34,408 nucleotides of DNA from Methyloversatilis discipulorum (lineage in GTDB: Bacteria; Pseudomonadota; Gammaproteobacteria; Burkholderiales; Rhodocyclaceae). The notes under the pieces were generated by a model. That model searched no databases. It saw only the letters and a program-made list of their open reading frames with translations, and was not told where the DNA came from. Location: positions 1-34,408 of the forward strand of contig NZ_JADMJL010000051.1 in the NCBI RefSeq assembly GCF_018780585.1. Reading direction: 5' to 3'. A program made the translations under genes and the position numbers. Shown here piece by piece: positions 13,938-20,031 of the stretch. Within the stretch, counting starts at the first letter, position 1. Each line of letters begins with the position of its first letter.

Positions 13938-13972
13938 AAAAACAAAACGGGGCGCCCGAAGGCGCCCCGCTG
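13938..13972 (-). terminator. Rho-independent terminator of the acs-tctCBA-panE operon
   Basis: On the minus strand a GGGGCGCC-TTCG-GGCGCCCC stem-loop with a UUCG tetraloop is followed by GTTTTGTTTTT. It lies about 20 nt after the stop codon of the reductase gene and closes the five-gene operon. Confidence 0.88.
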
Positions 13973-13992: not shown

Positions 13993-14997
13993 TCAGCCAG
14001 CGATGGCCAGCTTGCCCTTCTTGTCCGACAAGGTGCGCGCCAGCAGCGACACCAGCGCGTAGACCGCGTCGATGTTGGGCGTCGGGATACCGGTGATGCG
14101 GCCCAGTTCGCGCACCGAGCCAACCAGCGCCTCGAACTCCAGCGGACGGCCGGCTTCGACGTCCTGCAGCATCGAGGTCTTGTGCGCACCGACCGCTTCG
14201 GCGCCGGCGATCCGCTTGTCCAGACCGATCTTGAATTCCACGCCCAGCTTCTCGCCGACCGCCTGCGCCTCGCGCATCATGTTGGCAGCGAGTTCGCGCG
14301 TCAGCGGGAAGCGGCAGATGTCTTCCAGCGTGGCATGGGTCAGCGCCGAAATCGGGTTGAAGCTCAGGTTGCCCCACAGCTTCACCCACATTTCGGAACG
14401 GATGTCCTTCGACACCGGCGACTTGAAGCCAGCGGCGATCATCGCCTGCGACAGCGCCTCGATGCGCGGCGAACGCGAACCGTCGAGCTCGCCCAGCGTG
14501 AAGCGGTTGCCCTCGATCAGCTTGATCACGCCCGGCTCGACCAGCTCGGACGCCGGATAGACGACCGAGCCGATCACGCGCTCGACCTCGATATTGGCGG
14601 CGACGATGCCGTCCGGATCGACCGAGGTGACCGGCGTGCCTTCGTAGTCGCCGCCCAGCTTGTGGAAATACCACCAGGGGATGCCGTTCTGCATGGTCAC
14701 GACCATCGTGTCGGGGCCGAACAGCGCGCGCATGTCGGCCGCCACGTCCTTCACCTGATGCGCCTTCAGCGTCAGCAGGATGACGTCCTGCACGCCGGCG
14801 TCGGCCATCTTCTGCACGCCGCGGATGTTCGGGGCGTCTTCGACCGTGCCGTCCTCCAGGATCAGCGACATGCCCTTGGCCTGGATGGCGGCGAGGTTGG
14901 GGCCGCGCGCAATGCAAGTCACTTCATTGCCGGCGCGCGACAGCTTCACCGCCAGGTAACCACCGATGGCGCCTGCGCCAACGACTGCGATCTTCAT
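13993..14997 (-). CDS. PanE/ApbA-family reductase, proposed oxalyl-CoA reductase
   Basis: This is an NAD(P)H-dependent oxidoreductase of the ketopantoate reductase family (334 residues). The N-terminal Rossmann motif is VVGAGAIGGYLA (residues 5-16). MQNGI (102-106) is the conserved cofactor-site motif. Lys206 (MWVKLWGN) matches the catalytic lysine of E. coli PanE, and SMLQD at 275-279 with Glu287 matches its substrate-binding Ser/Glu region. A strong GAAGGAGAT ribosome site precedes the ATG at 14997. It is the last gene of the operon after a CoA ligase and a TTT transporter, so a role in pantothenate synthesis is unlikely. A PanE paralogue (PanE2) in Methylobacterium extorquens is the oxalyl-CoA reductase that yields glyoxylate; the neighbouring ligase makes that the best guess here. 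The family is certain, the specific substrate inferred. Confidence 0.85.
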   Translation of the reverse strand: MKIAVVGAGAIGGYLAVKLSRAGNEVTCIARGPNLAAIQAKGMSLILEDGTVEDAPNIRGVQKMADAGVQDVILLTLKAHQVKDVAADMRALFGPDTMVVTMQNGIPWWYFHKLGGDYEGTPVTSVDPDGIVAANIEVERVIGSVVYPASELVEPGVIKLIEGNRFTLGELDGSRSPRIEALSQAMIAAGFKSPVSKDIRSEMWVKLWGNLSFNPISALTHATLEDICRFPLTRELAANMMREAQAVGEKLGVEFKIGLDKRIAGAEAVGAHKTSMLQDVEAGRPLEFEALVGSVRELGRITGIPTPNIDAVYALVSLLARTLSDKKGKLAIAG

Positions 14998-15053
14998 CTT
15001 TTCATCTCCTTCAATGGCGCGGCGGGACGGCGCTTGCGCACCGGCCCGCCGTC

Positions 15054-15085
15054 ATTCCGTCCCGCCGTCGTGGGGCGGACGGAAT
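15054..15085 (-). other. Stem-loop between tctA and the reductase gene
   Basis: ATTCCGTCC and GGACGGAAT form a 9-bp perfect stem around a 14-nt GC-rich loop. It lies between the tctA stop and the reductase start and overlaps neither gene. There is no T tract on the minus strand. It could set the relative level of the last gene or mark an mRNA processing point. Confidence 0.4.
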
Positions 15086-15094
15086 CAGTTCATG

Positions 15095-16591
15095 TCACGC
15101 ACGGCCGCGCAGATAGTGCTTCAGCGCCGGCACGATGGGCCACAGCAGCATGGTGAAGGACAGCAGCATCAGACCGGCCACCAGCGGGTTGGCCCAGAAG
15201 ATGTCGAGACTGCCCTGCGAGAGCAGCATGGACTGACGGAAGCTCGATTCGGCCATGTCGCCGAGCACCAGCGCAAGCACCAGCGGTGCGAGCGGGTAAC
15301 GCAGCTTCTTGAACAGGTAACCGAACACGCCGAACACCAGCATCATCACCACGTCGAAGATGGAGCTGTGCACCGTGTAGGCACCGATCGCGCAGATCAC
15401 GATGATGACCGGGCCGATCACCGAGAACGGGATGCGCAGGATGGCCGCCCACCAGGGCACCGTGGTCAGCACGACGATCAGGCCGACGATGTTGCCGAGG
15501 TACATCGACGCGATAAGGCCCCAGACGAAGTCCGGCTTCTCGGTGAACAGCAGCGGACCGGGCTGCAGACCCCAGATCAGCAGGCCGCCCAGCAGCACAG
15601 CGGCGGTCGGCGAACCGGGAATGCCCAGCGTCAGCATCGGCAGCAGCGCCGAGGTACCGGCGGCGTGCGCCGCGGTTTCCGGGGCCACCACGCCTTCGAT
15701 ATTGCCCTTGCCGAACGAGTCCTTGTCCTTCGCTCCCCGACGGGCCAGACCGTAGGCCATGAAGGAGGCCGGCGTCGCGCCACCCGGGGTGACGCCCATC
15801 CAGCAGCCCACCAGCACCGAGCGGATCGAGGTCTTCCAGTAGCGCAGCAGTTCCTTCCAGGTCTGCAGCACGACGTTGAGCTGGATCTTCGCGCTCTTGC
15901 CCTTGAAGGCCAGGCCCTCTTCCATCGTCAGCAGGATTTCGCCGATGCCGAACAGACCGATCACCGCGATCAGGAAGTCGAAGCCCTTCAGCAGCTCTGT
16001 GGTGCCGAAGGTCATGCGCAGCGTGCCGGTCACCGTGTCCATGCCGACCGCCGCCAGCGCGAAGCCGAGCGCCATCACGGCCAGCGTCTTGGCGGGTGGC
16101 TCCTTGCTCATGCCGACGAAGGAGCAGAAGGTGAGCATCTGCACCGCGAACATTTCCGCCGCCCCGAACTTCAGCGCGAACTTCGCCACCAGCGGGGCGA
16201 GGAAGGTGATCAGCAGCACGGCGAAGAAGGCGCCAACGAAGGACGACGTGAACGCCGCCGTCAGTGCGGCACCCGCCCGACCCTGCTGTGCCAGCGGGAA
16301 GCCGTCGAAGGTGGTGGCTACCGACCACGGTTCGCCCGGAATGTTGAACAGGATCGACGTGATCGCCCCGCCGAACAGCGCGCCCCAGTAGATGCAGGAC
16401 AGCATGATGATGGCCGAGGTCTGGTCCATCGAAAAGGTCAGCGGCAGCAGGATGGCGATGCCGTTGGCACCGCCCAGGCCCGGCAGCACGCCGATCAGGA
16501 TGCCCAGCGTGATGCCGAGCACCATGAAGCCCAGATTGGGCAGGGTCAGCGCGACGCTGAACCCGTGCATGAGGTTGTTGAGTTCTTCCAT
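15095..16591 (-). CDS. tctA: Tripartite tricarboxylate transporter large permease TctA
   Basis: This is the large membrane subunit (498 residues, usual length about 500) of a TTT transporter, which imports carboxylates together with H+ or Na+ using a periplasmic binding protein. Diagnostic motifs are GVLPGLGGANGIAILLPLTF near residues 34-53 and the repeat GVTPGGATPASFMAYGLARR, with LTLGIPGSPTAAVLLGGL further on. About eleven or twelve hydrophobic helices follow the family pattern. It starts 26 nt after the tctB stop and belongs to the same operon. The binding protein and CoA ligase in the operon suggest a small dicarboxylate, oxalate by inference. Confidence 0.95.
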   Translation of the reverse strand: MEELNNLMHGFSVALTLPNLGFMVLGITLGILIGVLPGLGGANGIAILLPLTFSMDQTSAIIMLSCIYWGALFGGAITSILFNIPGEPWSVATTFDGFPLAQQGRAGAALTAAFTSSFVGAFFAVLLITFLAPLVAKFALKFGAAEMFAVQMLTFCSFVGMSKEPPAKTLAVMALGFALAAVGMDTVTGTLRMTFGTTELLKGFDFLIAVIGLFGIGEILLTMEEGLAFKGKSAKIQLNVVLQTWKELLRYWKTSIRSVLVGCWMGVTPGGATPASFMAYGLARRGAKDKDSFGKGNIEGVVAPETAAHAAGTSALLPMLTLGIPGSPTAAVLLGGLLIWGLQPGPLLFTEKPDFVWGLIASMYLGNIVGLIVVLTTVPWWAAILRIPFSVIGPVIIVICAIGAYTVHSSIFDVVMMLVFGVFGYLFKKLRYPLAPLVLALVLGDMAESSFRQSMLLSQGSLDIFWANPLVAGLMLLSFTMLLWPIVPALKHYLRGRA

Positions 16592-16617
16592 CTCGGTCTC
16601 GGGAATTTCGCGTTATG

Positions 16618-17130
16618 TCAGAAACCGAGCATCAGCTCGATCGGACCTTTGGGCAGCGGCACGAGGAACCAGCGCTCGAACAGCATGAAGGCTGCGAGCG
16701 GCACGCCGACTGCGGTCAGGGTGGTGGCAATGAGGCCGAACTTGCCGTGCACCTTCATGAAGAAGGCGATCAGCACCAGCGACGACACGTAGATGCCGAG
16801 ATAGACGACAGCCACGATGTAGATGGTGAGCGGCACCAGCATCTGCATCACCGACTTCAGCTCGACCCAGGACGCGAACTGCGGCTGTGCCTTCTTGAAG
16901 CGTGTCAGTGCGCCGAACAGGATCCAGCCGCTGGATATGAGCAGGATGCAGCCGATGTAGAAGGGGAAATAGCCGGCGCGCGGGCCCTCACCCTCTTCCC
17001 AGCCGATGCCGACTCGGATGCTGTCGTTCACCACGATGATGCCGATGGCGAACAGGAAGAGCGCGACCAGGATTTCCGGCCAGCGGTTGGACATGCCGGC
17101 TTCAGCGGCGTCCTCGGATCGCTCCATCAT
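16618..17130 (-). CDS. tctB: Tripartite tricarboxylate transporter small permease TctB
   Basis: This is the small membrane subunit of the TTT transporter, 170 residues with four hydrophobic helices. It has the family's N-terminal helix (PEILVALFLFAIGIIVVNDS) and the G-P-R-A-G-Y-F-P-F-Y-I-G motif between helices 1 and 2. I chose the ATG at 17130 because CTGGAG lies just upstream; a longer frame up to 17217 would run through the palindromic hairpin in the intergenic gap. It partners TctA, encoded 26 nt downstream. Confidence 0.92.
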   Translation of the reverse strand: MMERSEDAAEAGMSNRWPEILVALFLFAIGIIVVNDSIRVGIGWEEGEGPRAGYFPFYIGCILLISSGWILFGALTRFKKAQPQFASWVELKSVMQMLVPLTIYIVAVVYLGIYVSSLVLIAFFMKVHGKFGLIATTLTAVGVPLAAFMLFERWFLVPLPKGPIELMLGF

Positions 17131-17182
17131 GAATCTCCAGAAACTAAAAACAGGAAGTGAACATCTTCGCGGCACATCGAAA

Positions 17183-17214
17183 CGAATACGGGCGGGATGA
17201 CCCGCCCGTATTCG
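17183..17214 (-). other. Perfect 14-bp intercistronic hairpin between tctC and tctB
   Basis: CGAATACGGGCGGG and CCCGCCCGTATTCG form a perfect 14-bp stem around a 4-nt loop, 18 nt after the tctC stop codon and 52 nt before the tctB start. On the minus strand it is followed by TTTCG rather than a long T run. In transporter operons such structures commonly protect the binding-protein message or cause partial termination, so that tctC is made in excess over the permease. Confidence 0.8.
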
Positions 17215-17232
17215 CACACTGCTACAGGCTGA

Positions 17233-18237
17233 TTACTTGGCCAGGAAGCCTGCGTCCTTCATCAGGCCGTAGTGCATCGCTTCCGACTTGCCGACCCAGT
17301 CGGCAAATTCCTTGCCGCTCATGAAGGTCTGCTTGAACGCGCCCTTCTTCATGAAGTCGGCCCACTCCGGCGTCTCGCGCACCTTCTTGAACAGATTGAC
17401 GTAGAAGTCGACCTGTTCCTGCGTGACACCCGGCGCCAGGAACACGCCGCGCAGCATCAGGTACTCGATCGGTACGCCGGCGCTCTTGCAGGTCGGGATG
17501 TCGCCCCAGGCCTGGGTCGCGGTCACCTTCTCGTTGTACGGCAGCTTTTCACTGTCCATGATGCACAGCGGACGCAGCTTGCCGCCACGCCAGTGGGCTT
17601 CCGCCTCGATCGGGTTGTTCACCGTCGAATTGACGTGACCGCCGACCAGTTGCACCGCCACGTCGCCACCGCCCTTGAACGGCACGTAAGTCATCTTCTT
17701 GCCGGTCGCCTTGTCGATCATCGCGGTGATGATCTGGTCTTCCTGCTTCGACCCGGTACCGGCCATCTTGAAGGTGTTGGCCGGCTTGGCCTTGATGTCG
17801 TCGATGTATTCCTTGGCCGTCTTGTACGGCGCATCGGCGTTCACCCACAGCACGAACTGGTCGAGCGCCAGCATCGCGCCCGGGGTCAGGTCACGCCAGT
17901 TGAACGGGACACCGGTCGCCAGCGGCGTGGTGAACAGGTTCGACAGGGTGATGATGATCTTGTGCGGGTCGCCCTTGGCGCCCTTCACTTCGAGGAAACC
18001 TTCCGCGCCGGCACCGCCGGACTTGTTGACGACGACCAGCGGCTGGGCCATCAGCTTGTTCTTGGCCACGACGCCCTGGATGAAACGGGCCATCTGGTCG
18101 GCGCCGCCACCGGTACCGGCCGGCACGACGAACTCGACCGGCTTGGTCGGTTCCCAGGCATTCGCGGCACCGGTCAGACCGATGGTCGCGATGGCGGTCA
18201 CGAGGGCGCGGCCGGCCCACTTTCCGAGTTTGGTCAT
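17233..18237 (-). CDS. tctC: Bug-type periplasmic binding protein TctC
   Basis: This is the periplasmic solute-binding protein of the TTT transporter (334 residues). The signal peptide runs from MTKLGK to GAANA (residues 1-27). The mature protein has the Bug-family start, VEFVVPAGTGGGADQMARF, which contains the carboxylate-binding loop, and later the conserved TFKMAGTGSKQEDQI and YVPFKGGGDVAVQLVGGHV. AAAGGAG lies 9 nt upstream of the ATG at 18237, and the frame open further upstream overlaps the CoA ligase gene, so this start is secure. It follows the ligase gene by 49 bp. Bug proteins bind small carboxylic acids; the binding residues read here do not settle which one. Confidence 0.95.
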   Translation of the reverse strand: MTKLGKWAGRALVTAIATIGLTGAANAWEPTKPVEFVVPAGTGGGADQMARFIQGVVAKNKLMAQPLVVVNKSGGAGAEGFLEVKGAKGDPHKIIITLSNLFTTPLATGVPFNWRDLTPGAMLALDQFVLWVNADAPYKTAKEYIDDIKAKPANTFKMAGTGSKQEDQIITAMIDKATGKKMTYVPFKGGGDVAVQLVGGHVNSTVNNPIEAEAHWRGGKLRPLCIMDSEKLPYNEKVTATQAWGDIPTCKSAGVPIEYLMLRGVFLAPGVTQEQVDFYVNLFKKVRETPEWADFMKKGAFKQTFMSGKEFADWVGKSEAMHYGLMKDAGFLAK

Positions 18238-18286
18238 GTGCAAGTCTCCTTTATTGTTGATGCGGTAGTGCGCGGAAGGGGATGGC

Positions 18287-19813
18287 TCAGCCACCCAGAC
18301 CCAGCTTCTGGGCGAGACCGATGCGTTGCAGCTTGCCGGTCGCACCCTTGGGGATTTCATCCATGAACAGGATCTTGCGCGGAACCTTGAAGTCGGCCAG
18401 TCGCGTCGCGGCGAAGGCGGTGATTTCCTTGTCGGTGGCCTGCTGACCTTCACGCAGCACGACCACGGCGCCCACTTCCTCGCCCAGCTTGGGGTGGGGG
18501 ATGCCGAAGGTGACGACCTGCGCCACGGCGGGGTGATCCATCAGCACTTCGTCGACTTCGCGCGGCGAAATCTTCTCGCCGCCGCGGTTGATGATTTCCT
18601 TCAGGCGGCCGGTCAGCGACAGATAGCCCTCGGCGTCCTTGCTGCCCTGGTCGCCGGTGCGGAACCAGCCGTTGGTGAAGCCTTCCTTGTTGGCCTTTTC
18701 GTTGTTCTCGTAACCCGGGGTGACGTTGGCACCGCGGATGACGATTTCGCCGATCTCGCCGGCCGGCAGGATGTTGCCGTCGTCGTCCATGATCTCGACT
18801 TCCGGACCGGCGGCCAGGCCGACGGAACCCGGCTTGCGGGCGCGCGGCGGCAGCGGGTTGGACGCCATCTGGTGCGACGCCTCGGTCATGCCATAGGCCT
18901 CGATCAGCGGAGCGCCGAAGGTTTCCTCCAGCTCGCGGATGACCTGCGGCGGAATCGACGACGACGACGAGCGCATGAAGCGCAGCGGGTTGCGTTCGAT
19001 GATTTCCTTGTTGCGCGAGGCGCGCGACAGGATGGCCTGGTGCATGGTCGGCACCGCCGTGTACCAGGTCGGGTGCGCTTCATCCATCAGCGAGAAGAAC
19101 TTCAGTGCATCGAAGCCCGGCGTGCAGAACACCGAAGCACCGGCCGACAGCGGCGCCATGATGCCGGCGATCAGGCCGTGAATATGGAACAGCGGCATGA
19201 TGTTCAGGCCGCGGTCCTTTTCGGTGAAGGCCAGCGTGGCGCGGATGTTCTGCGCCGAAGCGGACACGTTGCGCTGGGTCAGCGGAACGATCTTCGGACG
19301 CGAGGTCGTACCCGAGGTATGCAGCACCAGTGCGACGTCGTCCGCCTGCGCGGCGCCGCCGTTGGCGGCCGGGGCGACGGCCGCGGCTTCACGCGGCTCC
19401 AGGCTGAAATCGCCGGCGGCTTCGTTCGCCACCAGGTCGATCACGCGCACGCCCAGCTTCTTCGCCACCTCGATCGCCGGCGACACGCTGCCGCGCTCGA
19501 CGACCAGGGCCTTGGCATTCAGGTCGGACAGGTAGAACTCGAATTCCTCGGCGCGGTAGCCCGGATTCAGCGGCGCGGCGGTGGCACCGGAAGCAATGCT
19601 GATGAAGGCGCTGGCCATGTCCGGGCCATTCGGCAGGACGATGGCGACGCGGTCGTTGCGACCCACACCCAGTTCATTCAGACGTGCGACGGTGCGCGTC
19701 ATCAGTGCGCGCAGATTGCCGAAGCTCAGATCGGTGCGCGCGGGCGCGGACAGCGCCACTGCCGAATCGGCACCGGTGGAAAACAGCTCGGCAAGCGTGG
19801 AAATACCGGACAT
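18287..19813 (-). CDS. AMP-forming CoA ligase of the oxalyl-CoA synthetase (AAE3/Pcs60) type
   Basis: This is an ANL-superfamily acyl-CoA synthetase (508 residues) that makes an acyl-adenylate from ATP and a carboxylate, then a CoA thioester. It has the P-loop TSGTTSRPK (167-174 region), the A5 motif EAYGMTEAS (305-313), the hinge GRLKEIINRGGEKISP (402-417), and the catalytic lysine K494 in GATGKLQR. The stretches PLFHIHGLIAGIM, TWYTAVPTMHQ, RSSSSSIPP and MASNPLP follow the plant/yeast oxalyl-CoA synthetase family (AAE3, Pcs60) closely, as I recall those sequences. The frame extends upstream to 20077, but the ATG at 19813 has CGGAG 9 nt upstream and gives a normal N-terminus. It is the first gene of the operon with TctCBA and a PanE-type reductase. 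Oxalate as substrate is inferred, not shown. Confidence 0.85.
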   Translation of the reverse strand: MSGISTLAELFSTGADSAVALSAPARTDLSFGNLRALMTRTVARLNELGVGRNDRVAIVLPNGPDMASAFISIASGATAAPLNPGYRAEEFEFYLSDLNAKALVVERGSVSPAIEVAKKLGVRVIDLVANEAAGDFSLEPREAAAVAPAANGGAAQADDVALVLHTSGTTSRPKIVPLTQRNVSASAQNIRATLAFTEKDRGLNIMPLFHIHGLIAGIMAPLSAGASVFCTPGFDALKFFSLMDEAHPTWYTAVPTMHQAILSRASRNKEIIERNPLRFMRSSSSSIPPQVIRELEETFGAPLIEAYGMTEASHQMASNPLPPRARKPGSVGLAAGPEVEIMDDDGNILPAGEIGEIVIRGANVTPGYENNEKANKEGFTNGWFRTGDQGSKDAEGYLSLTGRLKEIINRGGEKISPREVDEVLMDHPAVAQVVTFGIPHPKLGEEVGAVVVLREGQQATDKEITAFAATRLADFKVPRKILFMDEIPKGATGKLQRIGLAQKLGLGG

Positions 19814-20009: not shown

Positions 20010-20031
20010 TGTGTAACAGATGCGTTACACA
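20010..20031. promoter_or_regulatory. 22-bp palindrome, candidate operator of the oxalate-type operon
   Basis: TGTGTAAC-AGATGC-GTTACACA is a perfect inverted repeat with 8-bp arms and a 6-nt spacer, typical of a dimeric repressor or activator site. It lies about 197 bp upstream of the CoA ligase start, with a GC-rich hairpin on its far side. No divergent regulator gene is present, so the regulator must be encoded elsewhere. Confidence 0.55.

Follow-up and report, generated by a model that had tools for sequence, protein, structure and literature searches.

Organization of the locus

The 34,408-nt window analyzed here, a stretch of Methyloversatilis discipulorum DNA, is part of contig 7 of a 4.56-Mb genome and carries, between positions 13993 and 19813, five open reading frames (ORFs) which all lie on the minus strand and are read in the order ligase, tctC, tctB, tctA and panE. 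An earlier note, made from the letters alone, had described these five co-directional genes as an operon for the import, CoA activation and reduction of oxalate or a similar dicarboxylate. Its gene calls were reproduced exactly, and each product scored above the cut-off of the respective Pfam models. The first gene (18287..19813) encodes a predicted AAE3/Pcs60-type oxalate–CoA ligase (oxalyl-CoA synthetase) of 508 aa with AMP-binding and AMP-binding_C domains. It is followed by the three genes of a tripartite tricarboxylate transporter (TTT), all with subunits above the Pfam cut-off: tctC (17233..18237; 334 aa), tctB for the small membrane subunit (16618..17130 with an ATG start at either 17130 or 17127; about 169 aa, 60.7 bits) and tctA for the large membrane subunit (15095..16591; 498 aa, 502.7 bits). 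The last gene, panE (13993..14997; 334 aa, ApbA and ApbA_C domains), encodes a predicted PanE2-type oxalyl-CoA reductase. The intergenic gaps within the operon are, in order, 49, 102–105, 26 and 97 nt, and a GGAG ribosome-site sequence could be read at four of the five gene starts, being weak at tctA.

The acyl-CoA ligase

A phmmer search of the ligase against the PDB sequences placed four oxalate-CoA ligase/oxalyl-CoA synthetase sequences on top (461, 444, 391 and 283 bits), including AtAAE3 (5ie0, 461 bits), an oxalyl-CoA synthetase (6qjz, 444 bits) and Pcs60 (8aff, 391 bits); the next matches, FadD13 (229 bits), a malonyl-CoA synthetase chimera (213 bits) and a malonyl-CoA synthetase (211 bits), came after a gap. 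The BLAST identities were 48% to AtAAE3, 44% to Pcs60 and 32% to FadD13. In a tree of 61 rows, with FadD13 as the sole fatty-acyl reference and malonyl-CoA synthetase left out, Pcs60, plant AAE3, the window ligase, the panE-linked ligases and one paralogue from the same genome (L131) formed a single clade with 97/100 support, and FadD13 and the remaining own-genome paralogues fell outside it, in agreement with the earlier assignment to the AAE3/Pcs60 type instead of the fatty-acyl type. The exact joins are unsure, because several branches are long.

The window ligase has the residues H216, R286, S289 and H319 (AtAAE3 numbering), as do 44 of 44 panE-linked ligases (those of 48 ligase loci minus L028, L039, L042 and L061, in which the ligase is cut or split), AAE3, LsAAE3 and Pcs60; the corresponding positions in FadD13 are occupied by A, I, G and G. 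H214 is also present in the window ligase, as it is in FadD13. We take H214, S289 and H319 to be oxalate-contacting pocket residues in AAE3. Membership of the window ligase in the AAE3/Pcs60 type is well supported, and the enzyme would be expected to make oxalyl-CoA from oxalate.

Another AAE3-type ligase gene of the same genome (C64:34129-35586, in the region C64:30000-47000, L156) is followed by a gene for a 563-aa thiamine-diphosphate enzyme and then by one for a 2944-aa non-ribosomal peptide synthetase (NRPS) with three AMP-binding, two condensation and one thioesterase matches. This region may be a biosynthetic cluster in which an oxalyl-type unit serves as building block.

The reductase

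The window PanE was 65% identical to one protein each in Methylorubrum rhodesianum and M. zatmanii, the other PanE-family matches in these two species reaching only 29–38%, and this single close homologue was therefore taken as PanE2; it adjoins a ligase 72% identical to that of the window. The earlier note had linked the reductase to PanE2 of Methylorubrum extorquens, and this held insofar as, of the paralogues, it is the Methylorubrum PanE that the window protein resembles most, the proteins compared being these same-genus homologues in place of the AM1 PanE2 sequence. Identity to the PanE homologues of four genomes with oxalyl-CoA decarboxylase (OXC) above cut-off was 60–62%. The closest named relatives among the matches listed (95–97% identical) belonged to Methyloversatilis sp. 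XJ19-49, a Methyloversatilis metagenome-assembled genome (MAG) and M. thermotolerans. In the PanE tree (87 rows) the window protein was found in a set of 23 sequences (support 95/62), 20 of which came from loci with both ligase and tct genes.

The PanE enzyme of M. extorquens, assayed with CoA and NADP+, is described in a passage of PMC9485241 as a reversible glyoxylate/oxalyl-CoA enzyme, and PanE2 has been employed to reduce oxalyl-CoA, according to an extract of PMC8411744. A further homologue, ApbA2 of Cupriavidus necator, is reported to share 51% identity with M. extorquens PanE2 and to lie near frc-oxc; without it, cells growing on oxalate doubled in 10 h instead of 6.5 h (excerpt of PMC7486775). 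By its relationships, the window PanE would reduce oxalyl-CoA to glyoxylate.

The transporter

The window TctC was the only TctC match in its own genome, with 4x9t as its best solved relative. The same TctCBA type was found between panE and OXC in three loci, from a Burkholderiales MAG (L068), an Oxalicibacterium MAG (L082) and Herminiimonas contaminans (L095), which share the order SucCD-like pair, FAH, panE, tctC, tctB, tctA, a reversed gene of the cyclic-nucleotide-binding type and oxc. The gene for formyl-CoA transferase (FRC), frc, comes directly after oxc in L068 and L082, and the L095 stretch ends before that point. The OXC of all three loci passed the TIGR03254 cut-off, and the FRC of L068 and L082 passed that of TIGR03253 though cut at the locus end. 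Between the window and these loci TctC was 68–71% and TctA 75–76% identical, compared with 23–29% for other TctC proteins in the loci, and in the trees the three transporters were sister to those of the ligase-bearing loci L041, L047 and L048 (support 96/98 for TctC and 93/86 for TctA). The position of the same transporter type between panE and oxc in three relatives points to oxalate as the substrate of the window transporter.

The reversed gene in these loci (about 202 aa; L068:13271-13876, L082:11295-11900, L095:14025-14630) stands just before oxc and is a candidate oxalate regulator, the Pfam match of the L082 copy being just above cut-off.

Oxalate and glyoxylate metabolism of the host

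Following the earlier suggestion that OXC and FRC be sought elsewhere in the genome, both models (TIGR03254 and TIGR03253) were found to remain below cut-off in all 13 Methyloversatilis genomes, including the own one, with weaker homologues matching in each case. The own genome also scored below cut-off with the models of bicupin oxalate decarboxylase (19.9 bits vs 254.2) and of glyoxylate carboligase (GCL; 320 vs 711), and it encodes isocitrate-lyase-family and MOFRL-domain proteins above cut-off. A serine cycle and a glyoxylate shunt have been described for the genus Methyloversatilis and, with these proteins, would offer sinks for the glyoxylate formed; the string 'oxal' was absent from the source text on M. 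universalis FAM5.

Distribution of the gene order

The contig scan yielded at least 588 PanE relatives, and the counts below rest on the best 80 loci, hence on near kin only, with neighbours counted within stored flanks of 8 kb or less. An AAE3-type ligase was linked to panE in 48 of these loci and OXC/FRC in 15, the two never occurring together (0/80): 22 loci had ligase and tct, 26 ligase only, 15 OXC/FRC without ligase, one tct only and 16 none of these. Among the 22 loci with ligase and tct, 17 had the complete order of the window, two were cut by the contig end in the ligase and three had the order tctCBA-FAH-panE-ligase. Since the complete collinear arrangement lig-tctC-tctB-tctA-panE was found in 17 of the best 80 named loci, 14 of them outside Methyloversatilis, the gene order is more than chance, and it recurs in both Rhodocyclales and Burkholderiales. 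Within Methyloversatilis, tctA adjoined panE in 12 of 13 genomes, and the spacing to the ligase was as expected in the other 11 inspected; the thirteenth genome (G007) lacked this PanE, its best match being 27% identical.

Some tct gene was present in four of the 15 OXC/FRC loci; in L089 this was a fragment of 83 aa (59% identical) on the edge of the locus. L096, L100 and L101 were assigned to this class by FRC alone, which in L101 was a 141-aa fragment. All seven FRC copies scanned (six loci) passed TIGR03253. The search for OXC, which covered the genomes of 45 of the best 80 loci, gave scores above cut-off in none of 17 genomes with ligase and tct, in seven of 16 with ligase only, all seven of which were Methylobacteriaceae, and in 12 of the 12 in which no ligase was linked; several of the genomes are MAGs, in which the absence of a single gene carries little weight, and related genomes do not count as independent cases.

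Two further genes recurred around panE in these loci. A SucCD-like pair (ATP-grasp and CoA-binding) was present in eight of 15 OXC/FRC loci and in none of 48 loci with the AAE3-type ligase (L068:4985-7029, L071:4717-7108, L082:3172-5217 and L095:4913-6957; Pfam on L082 only); it perhaps replaces the AAE3-type ligase as an alternative, ADP-forming oxalate-CoA ligase. A gene of about 255 aa beside panE in many relatives had been considered as a regulator, which was rejected, the product being an FAH-family protein. It immediately precedes panE in 19 of the 26 loci with ligase only, 13 of the 15 with OXC/FRC and three of the 22 with ligase and tct (for example L040:7210-7965, L052:7109-7879 and L082:5413-6177), and is absent from the window operon.

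Proposed pathway and its alternatives

From the gene content, protein families, phylogeny, conserved residues and synteny, together with the sub-cut-off scores of OXC, FRC and GCL, we infer the substrate, direction, cofactor, regulation and physiological role of the operon, which very probably constitutes a self-contained, decarboxylase-independent route of oxalate assimilation feeding the serine cycle. The import, activation and reduction of oxalate proposed in the earlier note is in this way supported by sequence and gene context. Periplasmic oxalate would be captured by TctC and imported through TctA/TctB by ion symport, whereupon the ligase would convert oxalate, ATP and CoA to oxalyl-CoA, AMP and PPi, and the PanE2-type enzyme would reduce oxalyl-CoA with NADPH to glyoxylate and CoA. 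The glyoxylate might then be converted to glycine and serine (serine cycle) by serine-glyoxylate aminotransferase or to malate by malate synthase.

Several observations weigh against this reading. Both NF005089 and TIGR00745 (NCBIfam, above cut-off) name the reductase 2-dehydropantoate 2-reductase, four paralogues of 40–51% identity fall inside its tree group on a long branch, the near-invariant residues of the group are largely common to these paralogues, and comparison with six paralogues revealed no clear set of residues marking oxalyl-CoA use. Taken literally, the family names would make the enzyme an additional ketopantoate reductase serving vitamin B5 synthesis and placed among unrelated neighbours, which is extremely unlikely for a five-gene order recurring across Rhodocyclales and Burkholderiales and in a genome that has another PanE-family gene (G000 C31, 28% identical).

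As to the ligase, its best NCBIfam model was FadD7, below the cut-off of that model, and H214, H216 and S289 were also present in two 34% identical ligases (L026 and L027) outside the AAE3 clade, which have a gap at the position of H319, so that only R286 and H319 mark the group. Moreover, since the second AAE3-like ligase of the own genome (54% identical, with all marker residues) adjoins the NRPS, marker residues and family membership do not prove a catabolic role. This placement outside evident oxalate catabolism would fit an operon of the same layout whose main substrate for uptake, activation and reduction is a different small (di)carboxylate, oxalate being only a side substrate, and so would the transporter, given that the ligand of TctC is not readable from its own sequence and that TTT binding proteins take varied dicarboxylates, ligand prediction being described as difficult in part of a review (PMC5812351). 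Such a change of substrate is nevertheless unlikely, with three components pointing to oxalate, namely the AAE3/Pcs60 clade of the ligase, the PanE2 group of the reductase and the linkage of the transporter to oxc in three loci. Finally, 16 of the best 80 loci showed no ligase, tct or OXC/FRC near panE, some of them through contig ends, and no report of oxalate growth of Methyloversatilis was found in the open-licence PubMed Central (PMC) literature.

The direction of the pathway also had to be considered. Binding-protein-dependent TTT are uptake systems, AMP-forming ligases are driven towards the acyl-CoA by pyrophosphate hydrolysis, and the related transporters sit with oxc/frc genes, all of which makes it very unlikely that the operon runs in reverse, oxidizing glyoxylate to form oxalyl-CoA and oxalate, either as an overflow valve or in order to secrete oxalate, albeit the PanE reaction is reversible (PMC9485241) and the reverse direction has been inferred for C. 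necator on glycolate in a section of PMC7486775.

Assimilated by import, activation and reduction, oxalate would probably not be burned via the formyl-CoA/formate route, given that neither OXC nor FRC scored above cut-off. By our own stoichiometry, its full oxidation gives two electrons per molecule, whereas its activation costs two ATP equivalents. This makes oxalate a likely auxiliary C2 carbon source for cells that draw their energy from methanol or elsewhere, and it is more likely to be used together with methanol than as the only growth substrate. The loss of growth on oxalate in C. necator without frc-oxc, as reported in part of PMC7486775, agrees with the role of a co-substrate. More tentatively, and as a plausible rather than a probable extension, oxalate use without frc/oxc, with dedicated TTT import and direct formation of glyoxylate, might be widespread and overlooked; in methylotrophs, oxalate carbon would then take the place of the half of the serine cycle that regenerates glyoxylate, with methanol as the source of energy.

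Non-coding elements and flanking genes

An intrinsic terminator (13946..13971, minus strand) with an 11-bp GC-rich stem, a 4-nt loop and a T-rich tail (TTGTTTTT) ends the operon, as the earlier note had it. Its fold (13971-13946) had a z of -3.1, with three of 200 shuffles equally stable; the scan gave six terminator-like sites vs 4.5 ± 2.2 in shuffles, a number that is not significant by itself. Within the operon, an intercistronic hairpin with a 15-bp stem (17182..17215, minus strand; RNA fold of 17170-17235) separates tctC and tctB (-32.5 kcal/mol, z -5.6, 0/200 shuffles equally stable) and plausibly raises the expression of the binding protein relative to the membrane subunits. The tctA/panE gap also had a strong RNA structure (z -4.0).

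Upstream of the operon, 199–216 bp from the ligase start, lies a candidate operator palindrome TGTAAC-N6-GTTACA (20012..20029, strand unassigned). At the aligned position in 12 Methyloversatilis loci (L144–L154 among them), a set that includes near-identical strains, it was perfect in nine and had one mismatch in three, the perfect forms being TGTAAC..GTTACA or TGTGGC..GCCACA (TGTRRC-N6-GYYACA-like), with paired changes in both arms. The palindrome was not seen in L155, and a scan of the 14 other lig-tct loci gave no copy of the strict motif ahead of the ligase. No sigma-70-like site came out of the promoter scan, against 1.0 expected. Further upstream, a 6S RNA (RF00013, 50.2 bits) on the same strand as the operon (20330-20148) ends 335 bp before the first codon of the ligase. 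No regulator gene adjoins the operon; a TauE/SafE permease gene is located downstream.

Comparison with known systems

The proposed route resembles the PanE2 route of M. extorquens AM1 in having a reductase 65% identical to its close Methylorubrum homologue and in leading glyoxylate to the serine cycle. In Methylorubrum/Methylobacterium a 69–72% identical ligase likewise stands directly after panE, in eight loci with a whole ligase gene. In contrast to the window, Methylorubrum rhodesianum L052 has a major facilitator superfamily (MFS) transporter and an FAH-family gene in place of TctCBA, and the Methylobacteriaceae had OXC above cut-off in seven of eight genomes tested, against 0/13 in Methyloversatilis. 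The MFS transporter gene (L052:5724-7094) lies upstream of FAH-panE-ligase and is a candidate for the oxalate importer of the Methylorubrum version.

With the frc-oxc oxalotrophy of Oxalobacteraceae, Variovorax and C. necator (with ApbA2) the operon shares the proposed substrate, the oxalyl-CoA intermediate, the PanE group and, in three loci, the TctCBA type, but Methyloversatilis had neither FRC nor OXC above cut-off (13/13) and its CoA would be attached by an ATP-dependent ligase. The plant and yeast AAE3/Pcs60 oxalyl-CoA synthetases have the family, clade and common residues of the window ligase, which, unlike them, is bacterial and stands in an operon with an importer and a reductase; the plant AAE3 enzyme is described as feeding decarboxylation in an extract of PMC8004701. 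SYNB8802, as summarized in part of a review (PMC11045627), also combines an oxalyl-CoA synthetase with a transporter for oxalate, but it is engineered, with an antiporter, OXC and FRC, and ends in decarboxylation instead of reduction to glyoxylate. Like known TctCBA transporters, the window operon has all three subunits; the main text of the 2018 TTT review contains no occurrence of 'oxal' (PMC5812351), and a passage of a 2010 genome paper names oxalate among the ligands TTT receptors might take (PMC2864759).

Surveys of oxalotrophy have been built on oxlT, frc, oxc and oxdC (PMC10192776). A 2026 survey draws the oxalyl-CoA reductase step, yet its toolkits are still scored by Oxc/Frc/OxlT and by Gcl, hydroxypyruvate reductase and serine-glyoxylate transaminase (PMC12927642). 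If the proposed route is true, a group of oxalate users would escape surveys scoring oxc, frc, oxlT and oxdC, a TTT could be put forward as candidate oxalate importer and bacterial AAE3-type ligases would gain a role. It would also provide a portable five-gene cassette converting oxalate, the acid of kidney stones, to glyoxylate, and it raises the question of whether oxalate can spare a serine-cycle methylotroph the regeneration of glyoxylate from acetyl-CoA. The open-licence PMC papers searched showed no stand-alone module of TTT importer, AAE3-type ligase and PanE2 in genomes where OXC/FRC stay below cut-off, so that the claim of an undescribed arrangement stands within this scope; rare it is not, given its recurrence in two orders. 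The chemistry itself is already known.

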